From a virus, in the IMG/VR virus record IMGVR_UViG_3300021600_000009, positions 1 through 48,156 of that record: a stretch of 48,156 nt of DNA; one strand, given 5' to 3'. The position numbers and the translations under genes were made by a program. A model generated the notes under the pieces. The model searched no databases. It was not told the origin of the DNA and saw nothing but the letters and a program-made list of their open reading frames with translations. Of the stretch, positions 83 through 48,106 are shown piece by piece (within the stretch, counting starts at the first letter, position 1; each line of letters begins with the position of its first letter).

Positions 83-127
83 TGGTCGGTGCGACAAGAT
101 TTGAACTTGCGACCACTAGACCCCCAG
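83..127. repeat. attL, 45-bp copy of the tRNA-Pro 3' half
   Basis: All 45 bases are identical to 48030-48074. The repeat starts at the base encoding the final A of the tRNA CCA end and runs into the anticodon loop. Here it is an orphan 3' half without the 5' part of the tRNA, so it is the left attachment junction. The integrase gene starts 20 bp inside it, as usual for tRNA-integrated phages. Confidence 0.93.
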
Positions 128-5208: not shown

Positions 5209-5305
5209 CAGTTTCCGGGGATAGGCCCGCTACCGAACGGAGGGACGCCTCACCCTCCCCTCCCCGGATTATCTCACCATGAGGCGCAATGACAAGGGGG
5301 CAGTC

Positions 5306-5887
5306 ATGAAGTATCTCACCGAAAAAGAAGAGAAGATCCTGCTGAAAACCGTGCATGAGATTAAAGGGAAAAAGGCCGAGCGTGACGCGGTGGTTGTTGA
5401 ATTCTTGCTTTCTACCGGATTACGAGCGGCAGAGCTGGTCGGCCTGAATGTTGGTGATGTGCGGGGCAAAGAAAAGCTTCATGTCCGGCCTGAAATTGCC
5501 AAGCGGAGCAAAGAGCGGTTCGTTCCGATCTGTGTTGACACTCAGCGGATGATGAAGCGGTTCATTTCCGGCAAGCTGACACGGAAAGAAAGTATCAGGG
5601 ATGACGCGCCGCTGTTTGTTTCCCGCCTTGGTGAACGTCTGGCGAAGCGGAGCCTGCAACTGTTGGTTGAAACGTGGATGATTAAGGCCGGTTTGAATGC
5701 CAGTACCGGAGAGGCAATCTACAGCGCACACAGCCTGCGCCATACCTGTTTCAAGCGGATGCAGGAACGGGGTGTAGCGCTGACAACGATTCAGAAAATC
5801 GCCGGTCATGCATCCCTTGCCAGTACCGGGATCTACACAGAGGCGACCTGGGATGAAATGGTGGAAGCGGTTGAGGCCAGAGGATGA
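5306..5887 (+). CDS. minimal tyrosine recombinase, catalytic domain only
   Basis: A 193-aa protein consisting almost entirely of a tyrosine recombinase catalytic domain. Visible are R in TGLRAAEL, the H-x-x-R of HSLRHT, H in IAGHAS and the nucleophile Y in TGIYTEA. The N-terminal core-binding domain present in full integrases (300-400 aa) is absent. I prefer the ATG at 5306 behind a GGGGGCAG leader, although an in-frame ATG at 5279 exists. It sits in the early operon, far from an attachment site, so it may act in DNA inversion, resolution or as an excision partner. Its complete active site argues against simple decay. Confidence 0.8.
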   Translation: MKYLTEKEEKILLKTVHEIKGKKAERDAVVVEFLLSTGLRAAELVGLNVGDVRGKEKLHVRPEIAKRSKERFVPICVDTQRMMKRFISGKLTRKESIRDDAPLFVSRLGERLAKRSLQLLVETWMIKAGLNASTGEAIYSAHSLRHTCFKRMQERGVALTTIQKIAGHASLASTGIYTEATWDEMVEAVEARG

Positions 5888-6664: not shown

Positions 6665-6973
6665 ATGACCAGCGAGGAGACCATCATGCTTGAACAGTGC
6701 AAGGCTGAATTCCAGTCGATCATGACGCGGATCGAGTCGGTTATAAAGGATAAGTGGCCGGAGACCCTTCAGGGTGACGGTGGTGTCTGGCAATGGGCGG
6801 ACGAGCATAACCCGAGTTTGCGCGTCAAGCACAGAGATTTGTGCAAGCGCCTGAATGAGGCCTGGCAGAATGGCATGTTGGCAGAGGTGAAGAAGCTTTC
6901 AACTGAGTGGGGCCGTCACCAGTTGGAGATTTTCAAGGGGTATGCGGCACATCTAAAACAGGGGGCAGTATGA
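6665..6973 (+). CDS. early phage protein of unknown function
   Basis: A 102-aa soluble, helical protein (two or three helices, rich in W, K and E). An internal ATG at 6686 is an alternative start. Its stop overlaps the ATG of the Nmad5-like gene (ATGA). No domain recognised. Confidence 0.6.
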   Translation: MTSEETIMLEQCKAEFQSIMTRIESVIKDKWPETLQGDGGVWQWADEHNPSLRVKHRDLCKRLNEAWQNGMLAEVKKLSTEWGRHQLEIFKGYAAHLKQGAV

Positions 6974-7512
6974 GACTTACAGAGGGAATGAGAAGCAAGA
7001 TCCAGAAAGCATTTATTGACGCAATTTTTAATCCGAAATTTGAGGCACTGACGGCTGAAGAGCGGCAGATCGGGGATGAAATTTTCAAAACCGCTACCGC
7101 AGAAAAAGACCGCAAAAGATGGGATGCGGCGCCTCAAGGTGATTTTCCTGAGATCAGCTCATGCAGGGCTCAATTTGAGCATGGTCACTACTCATATATA
7201 TACTTCTCGCGTTCAGTCCGAGTAGGTCACAGCTTTAACAACAAGTCAACGATCCTTGTAGAGGATCAAGCACTGAAAATCCGTCATCAGGACTGGCAGT
7301 TGAAGAAAGAAAAGTGCGAGTCAGAGAAAAAAGAGTTATCGAGAAAAATAACCTCCGCACTGAACAGCGTAAACACCGACAAACAGTTGCTCGACGTTTG
7401 GCCGGAATGCGCCCCGTACATCCCCGCCAGCATGGTCAACCTTCCCGCTGTAGTCGTGACTGAAATCCGTAATGAGATCAACAACGCGATGTTGGGAGGA
7501 GCTGAAGCATGA
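6970..7512 (+). CDS. Nmad5-like nucleotide-modification-associated protein
   Basis: A 180-aa protein. The C-terminal half has the signature I associate with the Nmad5 family (nucleotide modification associated domain 5), with 'TDKQLLDVWPE.APYIP' followed by 'NLPAVVVTEIRNEIN'. The N-terminal half is a basic helical region. Nmad proteins occur in phages beside DNA modification genes, but their biochemical role is not established. The gene is coupled to both neighbours (ATGA overlaps) and lies just upstream of a MazG-like gene and a cytosine methyltransferase, which fits a modification context. Confidence 0.6.
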   Translation: MRLTEGMRSKIQKAFIDAIFNPKFEALTAEERQIGDEIFKTATAEKDRKRWDAAPQGDFPEISSCRAQFEHGHYSYIYFSRSVRVGHSFNNKSTILVEDQALKIRHQDWQLKKEKCESEKKELSRKITSALNSVNTDKQLLDVWPECAPYIPASMVNLPAVVVTEIRNEINNAMLGGAEA

Positions 7513-8073: not shown

Positions 8074-9762
8074 ATGACTCCTGTAATTCTGAAATACCGT
8101 GACCGCTTCCGCAAATTCCCTCAGCTTGATATGAATTTCGGTGAGCTGGTGATTGATAACTTTGCTGGCGGGGGTGGAGCCAGCACCGGGATAGAGGCTG
8201 CGATTGGCAGGCCGGTTGATATTGCCATCAATCACGATCCCAGTGCCGTAGCCATGCACGAGGTCAACCATCCACAGACCCGGCACTATTGTGAATCGGT
8301 TTGGGACATCGATCCGCGCAAAGTATGTGAAGGCCGTCCGGTCGGACTGGCGTGGTTTAGCCCTGACTGCAAACACTTCTCTAAGGCGAAAGGTTGCAAG
8401 CCCGTTGAAAAGAAGATACGCGGCCTGGCGTGGGTTGTCTTGAGATGGGCGGCAACAGTCCGGCCACGGATTATCATGCTGGAGAATGTTGAAGAGTTCG
8501 TTACCTGGGGGCCGCTGACTACTGACGTGCATGGTAATTGCTATCCATGCAAGAAAAACAAGGGGCGTACATTCAATTCGTTCGTCAATGCATTGCGCCG
8601 GCAGGGGTACGATGTTGAGTGGCAAGAGATGCGGGCGTGTAATTATGGTGCTCCAACAATACGCAAGCGCCTGTTTCTGGTTGCCCGTTGCGACGGCCAA
8701 CAGATTGTCTGGCCGGAACCGACTCACGCCGAGTCGAACAGTGAGGCAGTGAAAAAAGGCCGCTTGAGGCCGTGGCGTACAGCCGCCGAGTGTATTGATT
8801 GGAATGTTCCGGCACCGTCGATATTTGAAAGAAAGAAGCCATTGGCTGAGGCCACGTTACGCCGGATCGCCAAGGGCATCATGCGTTATGTGATAAATAA
8901 TCCTGATCCCTTCATTGTTACCTACTACGGGTCAAAAGGCCCTGACTTTCGCGGGCAACCTACCAGTGAACCCCTTAAAACTCAGACTACAGAGAACCGT
9001 CATGCTTTGGTTGTTCCTTCTATAGTTCCGATTGCAAATTACAATGGCAGCGACAACGTACATCCTGCGCACGAACCGCTGCGGACTGTTACCGCATGGC
9101 CGAGAGGCGGACACTTCGCTCTTTGTTCCGCCTTCCTTGCAAAGCATTACGGTGGCGTAGTGGGCCATGGAGTTGAGCAGCCGACAGGCACTGTAACTAC
9201 AGCTGACCACCATTCCCTTGTTACAGCTTCAATAATTCGTCAATTCGGAGAAAGCGTAGGCAGCAAAACTGATGAACCTGTCGGCACCATCACAGCCGGT
9301 GGTATGGGAAAGACCGGTGTTATCGCCTCCCACCTGGTCAAGTTGCGCGGCACATGCAAAGACGGACAGCCAGTTACAAAACCATCACCAACAGTTACTG
9401 CATCCGGCACCCATATTGGCGAAGTAAGAACCTTCCTGCTGAAATATTATGGAAGCGAGCAAGATCCCAACATCAAAGAACCGCTGCACACTGTCACCAC
9501 GCGGGATAGGTTCGGACTGGTGACGGTGCATGGCGAAGAATACCAGATAGCGGATATCGGTATGCGCATGTTGTCCCCTCGTGAACTGTTTCGCGCTCAG
9601 GGATTTCCTGAAAACTACATTATCGACCGAGACAGCCATGGCAAAGCAATTACAAAAACTGATCAGGTTGCGCGCTGCGGTAATTCAGTATGTCCACCAA
9701 TGTCAGAAGTTCTGGTGAAGGCAAACATGACGAAAGTTGAATATTTGAGGAAAACAGCATGA
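8074..9762 (+). CDS. C5 cytosine DNA methyltransferase with internal repeats
   Basis: A 562-aa enzyme predicted to transfer methyl groups from S-adenosylmethionine to C5 of cytosine in DNA. Motif I is FAGGGGAS (residues 30-37), the catalytic motif IV is SPDCKHFS with C99, motif VI is ENVE (137-140), motif VIII includes TIRKRLF, and motifs IX-X are RELFRAQGFPENY and ARCGNSVCPP near the C-terminus. The catalytic motif has PDC instead of the usual PCQ, but the Cys is present. Between motifs VIII and IX lie about six degenerate repeats of roughly 35 residues, each with P-x-x-T-V-T-like cores, in the place of the target recognition domain. It probably protects phage DNA from host restriction. It is followed, with a 4-bp overlap, by a PnuC-like gene. 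Confidence 0.88.
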   Translation: MTPVILKYRDRFRKFPQLDMNFGELVIDNFAGGGGASTGIEAAIGRPVDIAINHDPSAVAMHEVNHPQTRHYCESVWDIDPRKVCEGRPVGLAWFSPDCKHFSKAKGCKPVEKKIRGLAWVVLRWAATVRPRIIMLENVEEFVTWGPLTTDVHGNCYPCKKNKGRTFNSFVNALRRQGYDVEWQEMRACNYGAPTIRKRLFLVARCDGQQIVWPEPTHAESNSEAVKKGRLRPWRTAAECIDWNVPAPSIFERKKPLAEATLRRIAKGIMRYVINNPDPFIVTYYGSKGPDFRGQPTSEPLKTQTTENRHALVVPSIVPIANYNGSDNVHPAHEPLRTVTAWPRGGHFALCSAFLAKHYGGVVGHGVEQPTGTVTTADHHSLVTASIIRQFGESVGSKTDEPVGTITAGGMGKTGVIASHLVKLRGTCKDGQPVTKPSPTVTASGTHIGEVRTFLLKYYGSEQDPNIKEPLHTVTTRDRFGLVTVHGEEYQIADIGMRMLSPRELFRAQGFPENYIIDRDSHGKAITKTDQVARCGNSVCPPMSEVLVKANMTKVEYLRKTA

Positions 9763-13396: not shown

Positions 13397-13937
13397 CAAT
13401 AAAACGCTCCAGGCCACTCCTGAAATGCCGGCACGGAAGAAGGGTTTTATACTTCAAAGTACAGGTTTGAGCGCCGCAGGCTTTGAAAGACCATGTAAAA
13501 AAAGTATTTGATGTCACCTTTAAAAAGGTATTCCAAAGCGTCTCTAGGCCAGTAATGACAGGCTTCTCAATCAACCCTGTGTTGTGTCAAGTCGCTGTTT
13601 TTGACAAAAACCCCAAATTCTGGACCGGAAAAGCCGGAATGGTCTTATGCACCTTATTACAAAATGTGCAGTTCAGAGAGTTTCACGAACCTGTAATCAA
13701 TATCTTAGGAGTTGGTGAGTGTATGAAAAGTGCAGTTCAATTCAGAAGTGTCACGGAAACAGTCGGTAGGTGGACCACCCCCCCTCGAAAAATCAGACCG
13801 TGTGGGTATTTCCACCCCCCTATTGCCCTCTCTTATCGCTACCACCCTCTAAAACCCCTTTCAAAAGCGGGGCGCACGGGGATTTTTCAAAAGATAAAGC
13901 ACGGATTTCTTCCAAAAGCGGGGGCGCGGGGGAATTT
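13397..13937. other. intergenic stretch without a convincing gene
   Basis: The 541 bp between the iteron array and the third recombinase have no ORF I believe in. A 152-aa frame at 13483-13941 has unlikely composition and starts with TTG. Degenerate iteron-like sites occur at about 13665 (TGTGCAGT) and 13728 (AGTGCAGT). At 13840-13937 two related G/C-rich units (CCCCTTTCAAAAGCGGGG and TCCAAAAGCGGGGG with trailing GCGCGGGG) look like a small dispersed repeat of the host type. Confidence 0.5.
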
Positions 13938-14909
13938 ATGAGCGATATCGAAAAATTGATAGCCGATTGGATGGAGTGGTGTTTTATCCAGAAGGGCCAG
14001 CAGGTCAAAGGAGTTGAACAGTATGCCCGTATTGTGCGCTCGTTCGTCCTGTGGCTCTCTAAGAGCAGCGTTCAGGTCTCGGCTGAGGCAATCAACCGCA
14101 AGAACGTCGAAGAGTGGCAGAAGGCGTTATTTTTTGACCAGGGCAACGTCAGCAATCGTACCCGCGCCAGCAAGCTCTCCGCGCTCCGGTCGTTTTTCGG
14201 GTGGCTGAAGTACACCGGCTACCGTGACGAGGATCCTACCAAGGGCATCCCTACCCCTCGCATTCAGCAGAGTCTCCCGCAGAAGTTCAGCACAGAGGAT
14301 CTTCGTCTGCTCTTTGCCGCTCCCCGCCGTGACAAGAAATCCGGTTTGCGCGATCTGGCAATCCTGAAGACGCTCTATGCCTCCGGTGCTCGTGTCTCCG
14401 AGTTGTGCAACCTGGACATGAACCACCTGAGCGACACCGGCGGCTATATCCGGATCCGCTTTGTTGGTGGCAAAGGCAATAAAGACCGCACAATCACCCT
14501 GAGGAGGAACCCGTCAAAGACCTTGCGTGATTGGATTGCGGTTCGCCACGGTATTGAAATCAACCACAATGCTCTGTTTGTCCGGATGTCCGGAAAGAGC
14601 TACACCCGCCTGACGGCATCAAGCGCCCAGGGTCTCCTTAAAAAATACGCCCGGATCGTCGGCATTGATGACGCTGAGGTGTTTGTCCATAAAATGCGCG
14701 GCACATTTGCCAGTGATCTCTATGACAGCGGGGATGATTGTTGCCCGCGCTGCAAGGCTCAGATCAATCACATGGATTTGCTGCTTGTCCAGCTCGCCCT
14801 GGGGCATGAAGACCCGAAAACCACCATGCCGTACATTGCCATCAGCGATCGTCATTTGAAACGTACGGCAATACCGGACAGACGATTTAACGAAATCGAG
14901 GAAGGGTGA
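13938..14909 (+). CDS. XerC/D-like tyrosine recombinase (third recombinase)
   Basis: A 323-aa protein with an N-terminal SAM-like core-binding domain (residues about 5-100) and a catalytic domain with R152 (ASGARVSEL), K179 (GGKGNKDR), H251 and R254 (HKMRGT), H290 (LGHEDP) and Y299. The length and architecture match XerC/XerD. An unusual insert with a cysteine cluster (DDCCPRCK, about 266-273) lies between the HxxR and the second His. A longer in-frame start at 13770 is unlikely because that part reads through the G/C-rich repeat. It is directly downstream of the presumed origin and directly upstream of DGR target 1. It may resolve phage genome multimers or drive a local rearrangement. Confidence 0.82.
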   Translation: MSDIEKLIADWMEWCFIQKGQQVKGVEQYARIVRSFVLWLSKSSVQVSAEAINRKNVEEWQKALFFDQGNVSNRTRASKLSALRSFFGWLKYTGYRDEDPTKGIPTPRIQQSLPQKFSTEDLRLLFAAPRRDKKSGLRDLAILKTLYASGARVSELCNLDMNHLSDTGGYIRIRFVGGKGNKDRTITLRRNPSKTLRDWIAVRHGIEINHNALFVRMSGKSYTRLTASSAQGLLKKYARIVGIDDAEVFVHKMRGTFASDLYDSGDDCCPRCKAQINHMDLLLVQLALGHEDPKTTMPYIAISDRHLKRTAIPDRRFNEIEEG

Positions 14910-14948: not shown

Positions 14949-16340
14949 ATGAAGATCGAACGAACAAAAACCGGAGCAGAAATATCTTTGACGGCCAATG
15001 ATGTTGACAGTGCGGTAATGCAGTTTGTGTGCTCATGTCACCCTGAATTTGCCAGAGGGTACAGTATCAACACCTTGAACACGGGTCCGCTGACTGTTGA
15101 GGCACTTCTCGCTCAAGTCAGGACAACGGAAGAAATCAACGATATCGGCGTACCGGGTCGGCAAGGCTTTGGCGCCGGAGTTTGCCCAGGCCCGTTGCCG
15201 ACCGGGATGACTGGAATTGGTGATTTTACCGATCCTGCGAGTGACACCTACGGCAACTACATTTTTTCCGATGGATCAGTGATGGTGTGGATCCCGGCCT
15301 TCTACTACAAAATTTATAAAATCAGCATGGACTTTGACATCAAGCCGTTTGCTCACTTTGCAGATGTGGCAACCGCCAACGCTGCAGGGTATGCACTGCC
15401 AAGAGCGTTTTACGATGGCGGAACGGTTCAGACCGGCGTGTTTGTTGACAAATACATTTGCTCCAATAATTCCGGTGTCGCGTCAAGCCTCAAGAATGGC
15501 AATCCACTTTCCACCTACAGATCACACAATCCTATCAATGCCCTCAAAGGTAATCCGGATAATGCCTATTACGGCACTATCTCGGCTGCAAAGACCCGTG
15601 GTGATGACTTCTTTGTAAACAGCCGCTTCATTTTTGCCGCACTTGCTCTATTGTCTCTTGCCCATGCGGAGGCCGCTCTGGATGCAACCTGGTGTGGATG
15701 GCACCACCCGGAGCACAACTTTCCAAAAGGCTGCAACAACTGGAATCTTGGCGATCATTATGATTCTGATGTTCGCTACGGATCGGATGGTTACAGCAGT
15801 TGCGCCAAAACCGGCAGTGCCAATCACTTCAGCCGGACAACGCATAACGGCCAAAATTGCGGTGTAGCAGATTTGAATGGTTGCATGTGGGAGGTCACTC
15901 CCGGCGTAACTTCTGACGGCAAGGGTTTGTATTCACTCAAGCCAGAAACCCGAATGAAAGACGTCACAGGCGGGGTCTCAGCGCAAACCGATTTGTGGGG
16001 GCCAAAAGGTCTCAAGAAAAATTATGACCATGTGGCCGCGTCCGGTGATTTTGAAATACCCAAAGGATATTCCCGCTTCGGCGGCCAACTGAACACAATC
16101 TCAGGAGACACTGAGGGGACTGGCTGGCAGCTGACCGGTATGGGCATCGCCCTCCCTGGGGACAACAAGGACACCCGCCTCTCTGGTGCGTTATGGAACT
16201 ATCCAGAAAAAGGCATGTGTCCGATTTCGGGCGGCTATTGGGACTATGGTTCTGGCGCGGGTGTCTGGGCGTTCACTCTGAGCAATGTGCGAGGCTACTC
16301 CAGCAACGGTGTGGGGTTCCGCTCCGCCTTGTACTTGTAA
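14949..16340 (+). CDS. DGR target protein 1, C-type-lectin-like variable protein
   Basis: A 463-aa protein that ends in a DGR variable repeat. I chose the ATG at 14949 behind AAAGGAGAAGTT rather than the upstream alternative start at 14913. The core (from GQGFGAGVCPGPLP on) is colinear with target 2 at 29244-30590: shared motifs include DGSVMVWIPAFYYK, GVFVDKYICSNN and FSRTTHNGQNCG. The C-terminal half has the FGE-sulfatase/C-type-lectin pattern ending in VGFRSALYL, the fold that carries DGR diversity in known systems. The N-terminal 65 residues are unrelated to target 2, so the two proteins may attach to different partners. It is probably displayed for ligand or receptor binding. The gene lies about 15 kb from the reverse transcriptase. 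Confidence 0.85.
   Translation: MKIERTKTGAEISLTANDVDSAVMQFVCSCHPEFARGYSINTLNTGPLTVEALLAQVRTTEEINDIGVPGRQGFGAGVCPGPLPTGMTGIGDFTDPASDTYGNYIFSDGSVMVWIPAFYYKIYKISMDFDIKPFAHFADVATANAAGYALPRAFYDGGTVQTGVFVDKYICSNNSGVASSLKNGNPLSTYRSHNPINALKGNPDNAYYGTISAAKTRGDDFFVNSRFIFAALALLSLAHAEAALDATWCGWHHPEHNFPKGCNNWNLGDHYDSDVRYGSDGYSSCAKTGSANHFSRTTHNGQNCGVADLNGCMWEVTPGVTSDGKGLYSLKPETRMKDVTGGVSAQTDLWGPKGLKKNYDHVAASGDFEIPKGYSRFGGQLNTISGDTEGTGWQLTGMGIALPGDNKDTRLSGALWNYPEKGMCPISGGYWDYGSGAGVWAFTLSNVRGYSSNGVGFRSALYL
16215..16328 (+). repeat. DGR variable repeat 1 (VR1)
   Basis: 114 bp aligned without gaps to the template repeat at 31034-31147. It differs at 14 positions and all 14 are adenines in the template. The AAY codons of the template are replaced here by TAT, GAC, TAT, GGC, ACT, AGC, TAC, AGC and GGT. 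The following sequence up to the stop codon (GGGGTTCCGCTCCGCCTTG and beyond) is nearly identical to VR2 and diverges from the template, as expected for the initiation-of-mutagenic-homing region. Confidence 0.95.
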
Positions 16341-16348
16341 ATATGTGC

Positions 16349-16370
16349 GGGCGGTGCGATAGCGCCGCCC
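16349..16370 (+). other. hairpin with GATA tetraloop behind VR1
   Basis: A 9-bp stem (GGGCGGTGC / GCGCCGCCC, one G-T pair) closes a GATA loop at 16358-16361. It begins 8 nt after the target stop codon. The same loop and the same 8-nt spacing occur behind VR2. Hairpin or cruciform structures at this place are known to be needed for target recognition in the Bordetella phage DGR. No T-run follows, so it is not an ordinary terminator. Confidence 0.8.
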
Positions 16371-16405: not shown

Positions 16406-16696
16406 ATGACCAGATCAGGCAACCAGGAAGCTGTAGAGGAACTGTTTATCTGCCTGCAACGGGAGTTCGGCAACATGGCGCCGCAGATTGTGCAAACTCT
16501 CGTTCGGTGTGTCGGAGGCCTGCGCCTGACTTTTCCAGATTTACAGGATCTTTACCGTGCAGAGAGAAACCGGCGCATCAGAAACGAGTTCACCGGGTTC
16601 AATTATGAAGAATTGGCGATCAAGTACCGGCTGAAACGGTTGCAGGTCAGAAGGATAATTCAGGGGGTGAAGAATGGGGTTCATCGGGTCGATTAA
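16406..16696 (+). CDS. Mor-like transcription activator
   Basis: A 96-aa protein with the C-terminal helix-turn-helix of the Mor/C family of phage Mu activators ('RNRRIRNEFTGFNYEELAIKYRL...RII') and an N-terminal helical dimerisation part. Mor-type proteins activate middle or late phage promoters through the host polymerase. It precedes the antirestriction gene with a 23-bp overlap, so it may control that operon or a late promoter. Confidence 0.72.
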   Translation: MTRSGNQEAVEELFICLQREFGNMAPQIVQTLVRCVGGLRLTFPDLQDLYRAERNRRIRNEFTGFNYEELAIKYRLKRLQVRRIIQGVKNGVHRVD

Positions 16697-18011
16697 CGAC
16701 AAATTACGCAAGTTTTTCCACACACACGCAGGACTGCTGGAGGGGAGAGATATTTGGATCGGTTGTTCCGGTAATTTCACCGTAGAGCAGATCATCAGTC
16801 GGAAATGTCAGAACGTTACGATCCACAGCAATGACGTCAGCATGTATACCAGTGTCCTCGGCCACTATGTCACCGGCCAAGAGTTGAAACTTCAAGTAGT
16901 CAATGAAGAACTGCTCTGGATGCAAGGATACATCGACAGGGGCGGCGATTATGCTGCTGCCTGCCTGTCGCTGGCTCTCTCCATGTTCAAATTTGAGAAG
17001 CGAAACAACAGCTTTTCGGAAAGGATGTGGCAAACGTACTTGATTAACTTTGAAACCATGCTTGAAAAGACCGTTGAAAAGGTACACAGAGCCGCCGAAA
17101 ACATACGCTGTGACGAATACACCATGATTGACGTACATGACTATTACCCGCAGGCGGATGGTGTCAGTATCGGCTTCCTGCCTACCTATGTCGGAGGCTA
17201 TGAGAAACTGTTCCAGCGTCTTGACGAATCAATCCTTTGGGATGCCCCCTCTTATGGAATGCTCACCACAGAGAGAAGAGAGGCTACAATTCAGAAAATG
17301 GCTGAAGGTGACTTCATTCTTTATGACGATCAGAAGCGTGATGATTTCCCGGTTATTGCAAAAGTCGAGTTACCCGGTAAGCATCCAGTCTGGATCTACA
17401 GCAACATGGATTTTGGTCGTGGTCTGTTCCGTACCAGAGTCAATGAACATGCCAGCAAATACCGGCTGCTCATGCCTGAAGAAGAGATCCCGGCCGGGGC
17501 AACGATCAGCATCAAATATACCGACCTCCCGACAATCAACCATTACCGCAGCATGTACCTCAGCAAGAAGATTGCTCCGGGATCAGGTGGCCCCTGTTAC
17601 CTGGCCTTTGTCGGTGAGCGCCTGTTCGGTTTCTTTATTTTCCAGACCTACAGCAAAAAAGGCGGAGACCCCGGCGAGATCTACATGCTTTCAGACTTCG
17701 TAGTCCCATCCACCCGCTACAAGCGGCTGGCCAAACTTTTGATAATGGCGAGCAAGAGCCGCGAAATGAAGCTGGCACTGGATGAAAAGAGCATCCGCCG
17801 TTATGACAGCATCATGACCACCGCCTTTACCGAAAACGCGGTCAGCATGAAGTACCGCGGCATTTACGATCTGATCAAGAGAGGCAAAACCACCGAAGGG
17901 AAACAGTTCCTCAATTACCGGGGAGAATTTGACGAGAACACCACTTTCAAGGAGGTAGTACAGACATGGATGAAAAAATTCAACAAGCCAGAGAAGCCGC
18001 CCAAAAACTGA
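16674..18011 (+). CDS. putative antirestriction adenine methyltransferase / Mom-like protein
   Basis: A 445-aa two-part protein. The N-terminal half resembles D12-type adenine methyltransferases: an AdoMet-binding-like loop (GCSGNFTVE), an acidic SNDVSMY strand end, and LPTYVGGYEKLF where active enzymes have DPPY-x-x-x-Y-x-x-LF. The catalytic DPPY is thus degenerate. The C-terminal half (from about residue 290, PCYLAFVGERLFGFFIF...VVPSTRYKRLAKLLIM) has a GNAT-like pattern reminiscent of Mom, the Mu enzyme that modifies adenines against restriction. I infer an anti-restriction role. The reaction cannot be deduced. It overlaps the Mor-like gene and the ParB-like gene, suggesting one operon. Confidence 0.6.
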   Translation: MGFIGSINDKLRKFFHTHAGLLEGRDIWIGCSGNFTVEQIISRKCQNVTIHSNDVSMYTSVLGHYVTGQELKLQVVNEELLWMQGYIDRGGDYAAACLSLALSMFKFEKRNNSFSERMWQTYLINFETMLEKTVEKVHRAAENIRCDEYTMIDVHDYYPQADGVSIGFLPTYVGGYEKLFQRLDESILWDAPSYGMLTTERREATIQKMAEGDFILYDDQKRDDFPVIAKVELPGKHPVWIYSNMDFGRGLFRTRVNEHASKYRLLMPEEEIPAGATISIKYTDLPTINHYRSMYLSKKIAPGSGGPCYLAFVGERLFGFFIFQTYSKKGGDPGEIYMLSDFVVPSTRYKRLAKLLIMASKSREMKLALDEKSIRRYDSIMTTAFTENAVSMKYRGIYDLIKRGKTTEGKQFLNYRGEFDENTTFKEVVQTWMKKFNKPEKPPKN

Positions 18012-18977: not shown

Positions 18978-19060
18978 TAAAAATAATGCAAGTACCTGTT
19001 TTTATTTATTTATTTTCTTTACATAGGTAGTCAATATGCTAGGATTACTTATAAGTTAAT
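18978..19060 (+). promoter_or_regulatory. promoter P1 of a duplicated pair
   Basis: TTTACA (19018-19023), a 16-bp spacer and TAGGAT (19040-19045) form a sigma-70-like promoter. The surrounding 80 bp, from the A-run and TAATG through TTATAAG, are nearly identical to 20798-20882. It precedes the AGGAGG-led gene at 19081. Confidence 0.65.
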
Positions 19061-19080
19061 GAAATCAGGAGGTTAAGGCC

Positions 19081-20529: not shown

Positions 20530-20807
20530 TCGAAGTCACGCACAACGGCGAAACAGAAACCCTCGACGGTTTCAACGGCATGGAGGTCAACGGCTGTATT
20601 CTTCTTCAAGGCGGAGTTTGCGAGGTCTGCCTTGACGAAGATCCGGCAGAATTCTGGACGGTCTATGGCCACTGGCGCACAGGGGGAGTCCGGGCATTAT
20701 GGGATTGCCCGACTAAGCAGGAAGCTCATGATCTCGCGCGGAAATGTGAAGAAGAATTGCGTCAGGCCGGCATCCTTGAATTTCTGTTTGATTGGCGTAA
20801 AAAATAA
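20526..20807 (+). CDS. 93-aa hypothetical protein
   Basis: I chose the ATG at 20526, overlapping the previous stop, over the in-frame start at 20478. A CxxC pair with acidic surroundings (CEVCLDEDP) and a C-terminal helix are visible. Its stop codon lies inside the duplicated promoter segment P2. Last gene of the P1 operon. Confidence 0.6.
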   Translation: MIEVTHNGETETLDGFNGMEVNGCILLQGGVCEVCLDEDPAEFWTVYGHWRTGGVRALWDCPTKQEAHDLARKCEEELRQAGILEFLFDWRKK

Positions 20808-20882
20808 TGGAAGTAGCTGTTTTTGTTGCATTATTTTCTTTACATAGGTAGTCATTATGCTAGGATTATTTATAAGCTAATT
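20798..20882 (+). promoter_or_regulatory. promoter P2 of a duplicated pair
   Basis: TTTACA (20839-20844), a 16-bp spacer and TAGGAT (20861-20866). The segment matches P1 (18978-19060) almost base for base, including the A-run/TAATG upstream part. It starts in the last codons of the gene at 20526 and drives the operon from 20899 on. Confidence 0.65.
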
Positions 20883-20898
20883 TTAACAGGAGGCGAAA

Positions 20899-29243: not shown

Positions 29244-30590
29244 ATGAGTAAAGCAATCTTTGACGATTTCCAAGGCCCGAATAACAGCCCGGCCAATTTC
29301 CCGTTCGGCTTTAAGACGGGGACAACCGGCAGCAACATCAACAACATCGGTATTGCCGGTGGTCAGGGCTTCGGTGTCGGAATATGCCCCGGTCCGCTTC
29401 CGGCTGGCATGGCAAAACTCGGAGGTACAGAAGACCCGGCATCTGACAATTACGGGAACTATCTGTTTTCCGATGGTTCAGTCATGGTCTGGATCCCTGC
29501 GTTTTATTACAAATGGGGTACAGGCGCCAATGGACTCGCAATAAATGCTCTCAGCATCAAAGCTTTTTCGGCGTATGCCGACGTGGCAACCGCCGCCGCT
29601 GCTGGTTATGCCCTGGACCGCGCTTTTTATGACAATAGTGCCATTCAACCCGGTGTGTTTGTCGATAAATATATTTGTTCAAACAACGTCGGGATTGCAT
29701 CAAGCATCAAGAACGGTATCGTGCTTACAAGCGCCCAGCGAGGATCGCTTACAACCGCTGTTTTTTCAGCATTGAACGGCGCCCCTGCCAATGCATACCA
29801 TGGTGCACTTCTCGCTGCCAAAACGCGCGGCGCGAACTTTTTCTGTAGCACAAGATTTATTTTTGCTGCTCTGGCTCGGCTAGCTTATGCCCACGGTCAA
29901 GCCAGCACCAATACAACTTTTTGTGGTTGGTATCACGCTACGTACAATTTCCCGAAGGGCAACAATAACAACGCTCTCGGAGATTCCAACGATGCCTCAT
30001 TACTGTACGTAAACGACGGTAACGGCACCTATAATTGTGGAAAAACCGGCAGTGCTAACTTTTTCTCGCGCACTACGCATAACGGCCAAAACTGCGGTAT
30101 AGCCGATCAGAACGGGCTTGTATATGAAATCAATCCCGGCCTTACCTCTAATGGGGTAAATATCTACATCCTCAAAACATCCGCACAAGCAAAGGCATTA
30201 ACCAACGGGAACACCCTGGCCACCGACCTTTGGGGCGCCGTTGGTATTGCCGCCCTCTACGATGATCTCGGCATAACGTATGGGGCTCTCTGGGCAACCG
30301 CTGCAAATCGCACAACCTATTTTGGCAGTGCCAACCAGGTTTTCAGCGAGGCAACGAGCGGTTTGCCGTGGAACACGGCAGGCTGTGGCATTCCGCTGGC
30401 GAATGGCGTTGGTGGAACAAACCCTTTCGGATCCGACTTTCTTTACGACTACAAACCAAACGAGATGTGTCCGATTTCGGGCGGCGGTTGGAGCTATGGT
30501 TCTTACGCGGGTGTCTGGGCGTTCGCTCTGAACAGTGTGCGGGGCAGCTCCGACAGCACTGTGGGGTTCCGCTCCGCCTTGTATTTGTAA
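29244..30590 (+). CDS. DGR target protein 2, C-type-lectin-like variable protein
   Basis: A 448-aa protein behind AAAGGAGGAGCAC. The core, from GQGFGVGICPGPLP to the C-terminus, is colinear with target 1 (shared DGSVMVWIPAFYYK, GVFVDKYICSNN, FFSRTTHNGQNCG). The C-terminal FGE/C-type-lectin fold ends in VGFRSALYL and contains VR2. The N-terminal 40 residues (IFDDFQGPNNSPANFPFGF) differ from target 1 and may anchor the protein to the virion. The gene is the first of the DGR cassette and lies between portal and capsid protease, not among tail genes. It probably binds a ligand or host receptor. Confidence 0.88.
   Translation: MSKAIFDDFQGPNNSPANFPFGFKTGTTGSNINNIGIAGGQGFGVGICPGPLPAGMAKLGGTEDPASDNYGNYLFSDGSVMVWIPAFYYKWGTGANGLAINALSIKAFSAYADVATAAAAGYALDRAFYDNSAIQPGVFVDKYICSNNVGIASSIKNGIVLTSAQRGSLTTAVFSALNGAPANAYHGALLAAKTRGANFFCSTRFIFAALARLAYAHGQASTNTTFCGWYHATYNFPKGNNNNALGDSNDASLLYVNDGNGTYNCGKTGSANFFSRTTHNGQNCGIADQNGLVYEINPGLTSNGVNIYILKTSAQAKALTNGNTLATDLWGAVGIAALYDDLGITYGALWATAANRTTYFGSANQVFSEATSGLPWNTAGCGIPLANGVGGTNPFGSDFLYDYKPNEMCPISGGGWSYGSYAGVWAFALNSVRGSSDSTVGFRSALYL
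30465..30578 (+). repeat. DGR variable repeat 2 (VR2)
   Basis: 114 bp aligned without gaps to the template at 31034-31147 with 16 differences, all at template adenines. Template AAY codons appear here as GGT, AGC, TAT, TAC, GCT, AGT, AGC, GAC, AGC and ACT. VR1 and VR2 differ from each other at most of these sites but share their downstream initiation region. Confidence 0.95.
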
Positions 30591-30598
30591 AAACGTCA

Positions 30599-30621
30599 GG
30601 GTGACGCGATAGCGCTCACCC
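30599..30621 (+). other. hairpin with GATA tetraloop behind VR2
   Basis: The stem GGGTGACGC (30599-30607) pairs with GCGCTCACCC (30612-30621) with one bulged C, closing a GATA loop at 30608-30611. It begins 8 nt after the stop codon, exactly as behind VR1. There is no T-run, so a role in DGR target recognition is more likely than termination. Confidence 0.8.
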
Positions 30622-30636
30622 CTTCAGGGAGACACT

Positions 30637-31032
30637 GTGGGTTTTCATTCGGAAGCGGAACTTAATAGAAAATTCGTTGAAATGGCAAAATTGATGAACG
30701 TGTATCTCAATCATTTTCCGAAATATGAGAAATACGCTCTTTGTCAATCTATTCGTTCCGCCATGTATGAGGTTTACGGACTCATTGTAGAAACCCAGAA
30801 ACGGTATCACAAGAAAACATCCTTGAGTCTGCTGGATATCAGGCACGAGCAGTTGCGGATGTTCGTAAATCTTGCTCACAGCTTGGGATATTTCGGTTTC
30901 AAGGATGGTAAAGGAAATGCCGGGGAGTCCACAGCCGAACATAGATTTTTGGCTATAAGTAGGCTTGTGGACGAACTCGGCAGAATGATAGGCGGTTGGG
31001 TCGTATTTGACCGCCAACGGGAGACGTCTTGA
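30637..31032 (+). CDS. avd: Avd-type accessory variability determinant
   Basis: A 131-aa helical protein starting with GTG behind TCAGGGAGACACT. The pattern FPKYEKYALCQSIRSAMYEVYGLI...LLDIRHEQLRMFVNLAHSLGY fits the four-helix-bundle Avd family, whose pentamer binds the DGR reverse transcriptase and template RNA and is required for mutagenic homing. It is basic overall, as expected for RNA binding. Its stop is one base before the template repeat. Confidence 0.85.
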   Translation: MGFHSEAELNRKFVEMAKLMNVYLNHFPKYEKYALCQSIRSAMYEVYGLIVETQKRYHKKTSLSLLDIRHEQLRMFVNLAHSLGYFGFKDGKGNAGESTAEHRFLAISRLVDELGRMIGGWVVFDRQRETS

Positions 31033-31033
31033 C

Positions 31034-31147
31034 ATGTGTCCGATTTCAGGCGGCAATTGGAACAATGGTTCTAACGCAGGTGTCTGGGCGTTCAATCTGA
31101 ACAATGTGCGAGGCAACTCCAACAACAATGTGGGGTTCCGCTCCGAC
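31034..31147 (+). repeat. DGR template repeat (TR)
   Basis: The 114-bp template contains 28 adenines and eleven AAT/AAC codons in the frame of the variable repeats. AAY codons are the hallmark of DGR templates because adenine mutagenesis gives NNY, up to 15 amino acids and no stop codons. The similarity to both variable repeats ends at ATGTGTCC on the left and CTCCGAC on the right. The downstream sequence differs from the variable repeats and no hairpin follows, which makes the transfer one-way. It would be transcribed as part of the template RNA reaching toward the reverse transcriptase start. The open 93-codon frame over this region is a by-product, not a gene. Confidence 0.95.
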
Positions 31148-31284
31148 TCTGTTTCACCTCATATCGGGCAACCGAATAGTGGAACAAAGGGAGGCGCTTT
31201 CCGGCAGTCTTTGGCTGCGAAATCGGTGTGCCGCTTCGTTTCTGGTAGGGCTGGTAACGGTCTCGAACGTCAAGGAGTGGAGTT
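31148..31284 (+). ncRNA. 3' part of the DGR template RNA (putative)
   Basis: The 137 bp between template and reverse transcriptase have no gene and correspond to the spacer that, in the Bordetella phage DGR, forms the structured RNA that primes cDNA synthesis. G-rich and C-rich stretches could pair, but I did not derive a reliable fold. Confidence 0.5.
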
Positions 31285-32280
31285 ATGAAACGAGTGGGGT
31301 TTCTTTTCGATAAAGCATTTACTCATGAAAATCTGCACCAGGCATATATCGACGCGAGTAAAAACAAACATGGCAAACGTGCCTGTTTCCAGTTTGGCCG
31401 CAGATTGGGGCGCAATCTGGAGCGGATGCATACGGCTCTGCATAACGGGTCATATCGGCCACAGCCATATTACACCTTCATGGTTTACGAACCAAAGCCC
31501 CGGAGAATATTTGCCCCATCCTTTGCCGATCTGGTTGTGCAACATGCCATTTATCGCGTGATATATCCCATATTCAACAAGACGTTCATAGATCAGTCGT
31601 ATGCGTGTCGGAAGGGCAAAGGCACCCATGCCGCAGCCGATTACGCTCAGGCGGCATTACAGGCATCACCTCCCGATAGTTACACGCTGAAAATGGATAT
31701 TCGCAAGTTTTTCTACCGGATTGACCGCGATATCCTGAGAACGATGATTGAACGAAAAATCAAGGACAAGCGTTTTGTAGACGTGATGATGCTTTTTGCT
31801 GATCACGGCGAACCGGTCGGCATTCCTATCGGCAATCTGCTTTCACAGGTGTACGCCCTCATCTATATGAACGGGGTTGATCACTTCATCAAGCGCGAGT
31901 TGAAAGCAAAACGGTATTGCCGCTATGTCGATGATTTTGTCATTTTTGGTATCAGCAAAGAACTGGCAACCGAATCGTTGAACCGGGTCGTGGAATACAT
32001 CAAAACCCTCCGCCTTGAACTTTCCAAGTACACCATTGCCGCCATCAAGCGCGGCATCAACTTTGTCGGCTACCGTGCCTGGGTTAGTAAGCGTTTCATC
32101 CGCAAGCGTAGTCTATTTGTGTTCACACGGGCATTACGCCTCGGTCAGATTGAAAGCGCTCTCTCTATCCTCGGCCATGCCAGAAAAACTCACAGTTTAA
32201 AGTATCTCATCACAACCATAAAGGAGAAATACCATGATTTACAGCTACCGAAAGCATATCGACGTCCTGCGTACAGTTGA
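31285..32280 (+). CDS. DGR reverse transcriptase
   Basis: A 331-aa reverse transcriptase behind CAAGGAGTGGAG. Readable motifs are MDIRKFFYRID (about 137-147, catalytic Asp), IPIGNLLSQ (190-198), YCRYVDDFVIFG with the YVDD box at 214-217, and GINFVGYR of the thumb-proximal motif. The small size without additional domains and the xGNLLSQ form are typical of DGR enzymes. It copies the template RNA with adenine-specific errors. Its end overlaps the next gene by 47 bp. Confidence 0.95.
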   Translation: MKRVGFLFDKAFTHENLHQAYIDASKNKHGKRACFQFGRRLGRNLERMHTALHNGSYRPQPYYTFMVYEPKPRRIFAPSFADLVVQHAIYRVIYPIFNKTFIDQSYACRKGKGTHAAADYAQAALQASPPDSYTLKMDIRKFFYRIDRDILRTMIERKIKDKRFVDVMMLFADHGEPVGIPIGNLLSQVYALIYMNGVDHFIKRELKAKRYCRYVDDFVIFGISKELATESLNRVVEYIKTLRLELSKYTIAAIKRGINFVGYRAWVSKRFIRKRSLFVFTRALRLGQIESALSILGHARKTHSLKYLITTIKEKYHDLQLPKAYRRPAYS

Positions 32281-32674
32281 AATTGCTCTACCTACCGGCG
32301 ATAACCACCAGCGTATCGGCGTAGAGTTGGCAACGGTGAACGGCATAACATACGTTTACCTTCCAGACGGCACGGCACTCCCTCCGCAACCTCCGGAAAT
32401 AACCGTTGAGGCGGTTGTTTTAACCCCGGAACTGGCGACTGAAATCAAGGATGCAAGCCCTCACGTCTGGCTGATCAGCGAGCAGATCAAAGAGAAGATT
32501 CGGGAGAAGTTCAGCTCTGAAGACGAAATGTATTATGCCCGGATCTCAATCGGCGTTGTGATGGGTGCGTACACGTTCCTTCCCGGCGAGCAGGATGCAG
32601 TCCTTGCTTATGGTGCGTACGTAGAGAGCGTCCGGCAGTGGGGCAGAGACCAGCGGGCAGCATTGGGCTTGTAA
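32234..32674 (+). CDS. DGR-linked protein, tail-assembly-like
   Basis: A 146-aa protein whose start lies inside the reverse transcriptase end behind AAGGAGAAATACC. Its C-terminal half (IREKFSSEDEMYYAR... YGAYVESVRQWGRDQRAALGL) resembles the protein at 32963-33157, so the two are partial paralogues. The Y-V-x-x-x-R-x-W-G-R ending is seen in phage tail-fibre assembly-like small proteins. It may be a chaperone or partner for the variable protein. Confidence 0.55.
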   Translation: MIYSYRKHIDVLRTVEIALPTGDNHQRIGVELATVNGITYVYLPDGTALPPQPPEITVEAVVLTPELATEIKDASPHVWLISEQIKEKIREKFSSEDEMYYARISIGVVMGAYTFLPGEQDAVLAYGAYVESVRQWGRDQRAALGL

Positions 32675-48029: not shown

Positions 48030-48074
48030 TGGTCGGTGCGACAAGATTTGAACTTGCGACCACTAGACCCCCAG
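48030..48074. repeat. attR, 45-bp repeat inside tRNA-Pro
   Basis: Identical over 45 bp to 83-127. It spans the anticodon loop through the CCA end of the tRNA gene, so integration leaves the tRNA sequence intact. Confidence 0.93.
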
Positions 48075-48106
48075 TCTAGTGCGCTACCAGGCTGCGCTAC
48101 GCACCG
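48030..48106 (-). tRNA. tRNA-Pro (anticodon GGG)
   Basis: A 77-nt tRNA read on the minus strand. The acceptor stem is CGGTGCG (48106-48100) / CGCACCG (48040-48034), discriminator A, and CCA is encoded. The anticodon stem-loop is CTAGA-CTGGGGG-TCTAG, giving anticodon GGG. The T-arm TTCAAAT loop is intact. It is a host gene used as attachment site. Confidence 0.95.

Follow-up and report, generated by a model that had tools for sequence, protein, structure and literature searches.

Prophage and cassette

The window analyzed here, the whole 48,156-bp stretch of DNA, is the entire virus record IMGVR_UViG_3300021600_000009 from IMG/VR. It carries identical 45-bp direct repeats (Table 1), the right-hand copy forming the 3' part of a tRNA-Pro gene (48030 to 48106, minus strand), and an integrase gene adjoins the left-hand copy; from these att repeats and the neighboring integrase, we infer a prophage with both ends present. 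Its genes include those for terminase, portal-MuF, major capsid protein E, tape measure, and lysis. The host is probably a Geobacteraceae (Geobacter-like) bacterium, as the closest cellular relatives of its reverse transcriptase (RT) are in a Geobacteraceae metagenome-assembled genome (MAG; 89%) and Geobacter MAGs (58%).

The prophage also has three tyrosine recombinase genes (148 to 1278, 5279 to 5887, and 13770 to 14909), the middle one a short catalytic domain kept in relatives, and DNA-modification genes at 6907 to 7512, 8074 to 9762, and 16674 to 18011 (Nmad5; cytosine methyltransferase; fused adenine-methylase-like and GNAT-like). An intergenic 94-bp direct repeat (18979 to 19072 and 20800 to 20893, 86% identical) resembles duplicated promoter regions.

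The original prediction, placed at an interval that spans the template repeat (TR) but not the variable repeats (VRs), was of an intact diversity-generating retroelement (DGR). The frames of this DGR are all open and intact. Related records that include flanks mostly show the order tail genes, variable protein (VP) gene, avd, TR, RT, and companion gene; in many relatives, g299 and g151 are the tail genes that precede the target. The cassette of the window, like that of Geobacteraceae contig L070, instead lies 3' of the portal-MuF gene; in the window, this places it in the head-gene module, and the VP genes are outside the tail module. No second distant VR was found in the related records scanned, each with a single VR in cis and several of them fragments. 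A second target ~14 kb away and a head-module position are thus the less usual traits, and two-target phage DGRs have already been published.

TABLE 1 Features of the DGR and its prophage (positions in the window)
Feature	Position	Strand	Basis or remark
attL, 45-bp repeat	83–127	+	Identical to attR
VP1, second target, about 463 aa	14949–16340	+	ATG at 14949 behind AAAGGAGAGGT; ~50–55% identical to VP2, unique N terminus
VRa	16215–16328	+	At the 3' terminus of VP1; differs at 14 A sites, one being the fixed marker
Hairpin behind VRa	16349–16370, within a base or two	+	GGGCGGTGC, loop GATA, GCGCCGCCC
VP2, 448 aa, FGE-type C-type-lectin-like variable protein, predicted receptor-binding	29244–30590	+	TaqVP (5vf4) profile and fold; PHROG tail family
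VRb	30465–30578	+	At the 3' terminus of VP2; differs at 16 A sites, one being the fixed marker
Hairpin behind VRb	30599–30621, within a base or two	+	GGGTGACGC, loop GATA, GCGCTCACCC
avd, accessory variability determinant, 131 aa	30637–31032	+	GTG start; PF22296 bAvd, NF033474, phrog_3206
TR	31034–31147	+	28 A, 11 AAY codons; 0 non-A mismatches to the two VRs
Fixed template marker codon GAC (VRs: GCC)	31145–31147	+	GAC/GCC in 24/25 relatives
TR–RT spacer (Sp) RNA, presumed region of cDNA priming	31148–31284	+	Conserved blocks, covarying hairpins
DGR reverse transcriptase, 331 aa	31285–32280	+	Motifs IGNLLSQ and YVDD; PF00078, 8ub7, tree
Companion gene of target, 146 aa, not DGR core	32234–32674	+	Follows RT, or target directly where core lost
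attR, 45-bp repeat	48030–48074	+	3' part of tRNA-Pro gene

Template and variable repeats

When both strands of the window were scanned without gaps, exactly two copies besides the TR were found, each aligned with it over 114 bp: VRa, starting ~14.8 kb upstream of the TR, and VRb, 569 bp upstream. The third-best match had 43 non-A mismatches. The counts first reported were reproduced exactly: VRa differs from the TR at 14 and VRb at 16 of the 28 template adenines, neither copy differs at any of the 86 other positions, and the TR holds 11 AAY codons when read in the frame of the VR and target. The hypergeometric chance that all mismatches would fall on A is 1.3e-10 for the 14 in VRa and 2.4e-12 for the 16 in VRb. 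The A-site changes are biased to G (9/14 in VRa, 11/16 in VRb), and those pooled over 25 relatives comprise 224 to G, 107 to C, and 61 to T; non-A mismatches pooled over the 25 relatives number 4 in 2,105 positions, a figure biased by a pair-choosing scan that favors A-only matches.

All 30 differences had been read as a record of mutagenesis, which holds for their location but overstates their number. TR position 113 lies in a codon that reads GAC in the template and GCC in both VRs, with the same pattern in 24 of 25 related DGRs, and this A-to-C difference is a fixed template/target marker and no mutagenesis event; the record therefore comprises at most 13 changes in VRa and 15 in VRb, 28 in total. 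It is possible that the GAC/GCC codon could serve as a one-letter marker separating template from target. At positions 15, 45, and 113, and also 62, the same new base occurs in VRa, VRb, and the VR of the sister phages described below, and some of these bases may be shared by descent.

Avd, reverse transcriptase, and target proteins

Avd and a YVDD RT lie on either side of the TR, as predicted. Avd matched PF22296 (bAvd) with 58.3 bits, above the cutoff of 40, and NF033474 with an E value of 1.3e-19 and 70.4 bits, under its cutoff of 80. The best PDB match of the RT was 8ub7 (E value, 9e-53), followed by a group II intron RT (1e-22); the search names 8ub7 merely “Reverse transcriptase,” and we take it to be the BPP-1 enzyme. 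In a tree of 22 RTs, the window RT fell with known DGR RTs, split 100/100 from a small outgroup of six group II-like RTs, and its nearest characterized relative was BPP-1 brt (84/86). Its IGNLLSQ conforms to the [IVL]GxxxSQ motif, whereas group II-like RTs have QGxxxSP. Measured against relative L027, dN/dS was 0.058 for the RT and 0.050 for Avd, and both genes are under strong purifying selection.

A target profile (28 homologues) matched one solved chain, 5vf4 (E value, 2.5e-7), which was also the top Foldseek match (probability, 0.97; E value, 4e-3) of a low-confidence VP2 model (mean pLDDT, 57.6; VR, <50). This chain is TaqVP, the C-type-lectin variable protein of a Thermus aquaticus prophage DGR, with nine variable residues (PMC6328139). 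By sequence and fold match, and with a VR that is C-terminal though poorly modeled, the target belongs with the FGE-type C-type-lectin variable proteins of DGRs. In a gap-free alignment mapped by hand, 8 of the 9 TaqVP variable residues coincide with AAY codons of the window TR, and the ninth (Ile, ATC) faces an ATT codon. This coincidence supports a placement of the AAY codons at ligand-facing positions by homology to TaqVP, so the earlier assignment of these codons to surface-type positions of the lectin fold gains support from the alignment; the model, with its VR at a pLDDT of <50, is not usable for that purpose.

VP1 and VP2 match the same PHROG families, one of them a tail family, and their homology extends beyond the VR, with about 50% identical residues before it. 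For the N-terminal ~45 residues of VP1, no relatives were found in the phage and viral collections searched. VP1 is an early-region gene whose neighbors are a primase-linked recombinase on one side and a Mor-like regulator on the other. Both proteins are most likely C-type-lectin-type receptor-binding proteins at the virion tail tip.

Two neighboring genes were considered for a part in the system and rejected. The recombinase at 13770 to 14909, a candidate shuffler of VP1, has relatives in L086 and L087, neither of which has a VP; the L087 copy is preceded by a primase-sized gene, just as the window one is, and the recombinase seems to be an ordinary neighbor within its module. The gene at 32234 to 32674, which overlaps the end of the RT gene and has relatives in about 30 loci, was considered as a DGR component, but loci that have lost avd-TR-RT retain it beside the target gene, which makes a companion of the target protein the likelier role, perhaps a tail-fiber assembly factor. 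Its confident model (pLDDT, 97) had no PDB match, and no Pfam family was found for it.

Target-site hairpins and spacer RNA

A GATA-loop hairpin stands 3' of both VRs, the two stems differing in sequence yet pairing, whereas none stands 3' of the TR. In phage DGRs, such hairpins have a 7- to 10-bp GC-rich stem and a GRNA loop, lie 4 to 34 bp behind the VR, and are required for homing in BPP-1 (PMC3240598); the window hairpins fit this rule. Close relatives keep a G[A/G]TA-loop core 3' of the VR, with stems altered but largely paired, L070 being the exception. Both VRs thus show the phage-type IMH arrangement, a GCC boundary that differs from GAC in the TR together with a GRNA-loop hairpin behind it.

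The 137-nt spacer has conserved blocks across 18 sequences. Its hairpin 1 covaries, with two-sided changes at five pairs of the RNAalifold consensus structure. The stem of hairpin 3 is kept in most relatives despite very different sequences; RNAalifold overlooks it owing to a register shift in the alignment, and its stems were therefore listed individually. Rfam model RF03022 (Phage_DGR) recognizes the BPP-1 spacer, but it detected nothing in eight relatives of the window and had no match in window positions 30400 to 31400 at E values up to 1. RF03068 (RT-3) gave a weak match at 31146 to 31280 (16.8 bits; cutoff, 40.5) that is full-length and lies exactly between TR and RT. This DGR group thus has a structured spacer RNA that appears to fall outside Rfam coverage at thresholds, and a new Rfam-type family model could be built for it.

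Past activity and loss of the core

At fourfold sites with a non-A template base, VP1 and VP2 differ at 0 of 17 in the VR versus 12 of 25 in the neighboring stretch (P about 1.5e-5), which is explained by the rewriting of both VRs from one template. Contigs L112 and L113 are 99.9% alike and 85 to 91% identical to the window from terminase to VP2; they are sister phages of the window phage. They keep VP behind the portal-MuF gene, and their VR represents a third state, with 14 A differences from the window TR and no others, but avd-TR-RT is deleted save for a short avd remnant. Separate deletions of avd-TR-RT with the target gene kept were located at L112:10780–11114, L095:1474–2000, L100:2696–3060, L104:6266–6800, and L106:6245–6700. 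The core is also gone in L106/L108, and some deletions leave avd fused to RT remnants. No near-identical prophage retaining the core was found, nor did a search of Geobacteraceae genome G014 recover the window TR or VR.

The third VR state and the repeated core deletions indicate a lineage that was active until fairly recently and that lost its core repeatedly. The original prediction that the system has been active is borne out in the sense of past activity, which is well supported by the concerted evolution of the two VRs and by the third VR state in the sister contigs; the window DGR, intact and formerly active, is possibly still active. Since a sister phage has lost the core, the core is dispensable at least for a time, and relatives with a target but without a core can be regarded as putatively frozen receptor genes.

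Interpretation

We consider it about 95% probable that the window holds a complete BPP-1-type DGR diversifying two receptor-binding targets, and that its carrier is a siphovirus-like prophage integrated at tRNA-Pro, probably in a Geobacteraceae host. By analogy with BPP-1, an RT-Avd complex would copy the transcript of TR and spacer with errors at adenines, cDNA priming being placed in the spacer, and the mutated cDNA would replace the VR at the 3' end of the adjacent VP2 and of VP1, ~14.8 kb upstream. Each target would be marked by its GCC-containing 3' boundary (IMH) and downstream GRNA-loop hairpin, both without counterpart in the TR. The re-randomized binding surface of tail-tip proteins could then follow changing host receptors.

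One alternative would see in the repeats nothing but duplicated gene ends homogenized by recombination, without retrohoming; it might be argued from VP1/VP2 homology reaching past the VR, but recombination offers no reason for differences to occur at template adenines only (P about 1e-10 and 2e-12), and we give this reading almost no credence. A DGR that was formerly active and is now silent, with frozen VRs, would be in keeping with the repeated losses of the core in L112/L113, L095, L100, L104, and L106/L108; it is quite unlikely given the intact open frames, hairpins, and spacer RNA, the RT and Avd dN/dS of about 0.05, the concerted evolution of the VRs, and the lack of non-A drift in either of them.

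The role of VP1 allows further readings. The same DGR could diversify VP1 as a lectin with a non-virion role (host surface, superinfection, or sensing), as its early-region location and unmatched first ~45 residues might suggest, yet the rest of the protein has ~50 to 55% identity to VP2 and hits the same PHROG families, the tail family among them, and we hold such a role to be unlikely. More doubtful still is that one template arms two functionally different lectins, VP2 for receptor binding by the virion and VP1, expressed from the early region, for action in or on the lysogen (e.g., against competing phages). A BPP-1-type DGR with two receptor-binding targets remains our preferred reading.

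The closest parallel is the DGR of Bordetella phage BPP-1 (mtd-avd-TR-brt), which shares the gene order, Avd, and RT clade and likewise has its VR in the 3' end of the target gene, a spacer RNA separating TR from RT, and a hairpin behind the VR. The two differ in RT sequence (38% identity), in loop (GAAA in BPP-1, GATA in the window), and in the recognition by RF03022 of the BPP-1 spacer only, and the window adds a second distant target and a cassette in the head-gene module. With the T. aquaticus prophage DGR, the window shares an FGE-type C-type-lectin target, the order vp-avd-TR, and 8/9 variable positions by alignment; VP2 is longer, with its own N terminus, and its fold match comes from a low-confidence model. 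Tentaclins also pair one DGR with two target genes, which differ in topology and in one of which the VR is near the 5' end (PMC10743442), whereas the window targets are paralogues, both with 3' VRs, 14 kb apart. Pseudomonas phage Bise has an RT of 58.8% identity, an A-only TR/VR pair, and a GGTA-loop hairpin, but a single target, behind tail genes; its DGR is annotated merely as reverse transcriptase, four helix bundle, and hypothetical proteins.

The DGR mechanism is already known, and the window system is no new kind, although two targets 14 kb apart are uncommon. What it adds is a clean, well-bounded DGR prophage in which two targets 14 kb apart are rewritten from one template, and, together with the sister phages that have the target without the machine, it would allow a live receptor gene to be compared with a frozen one.
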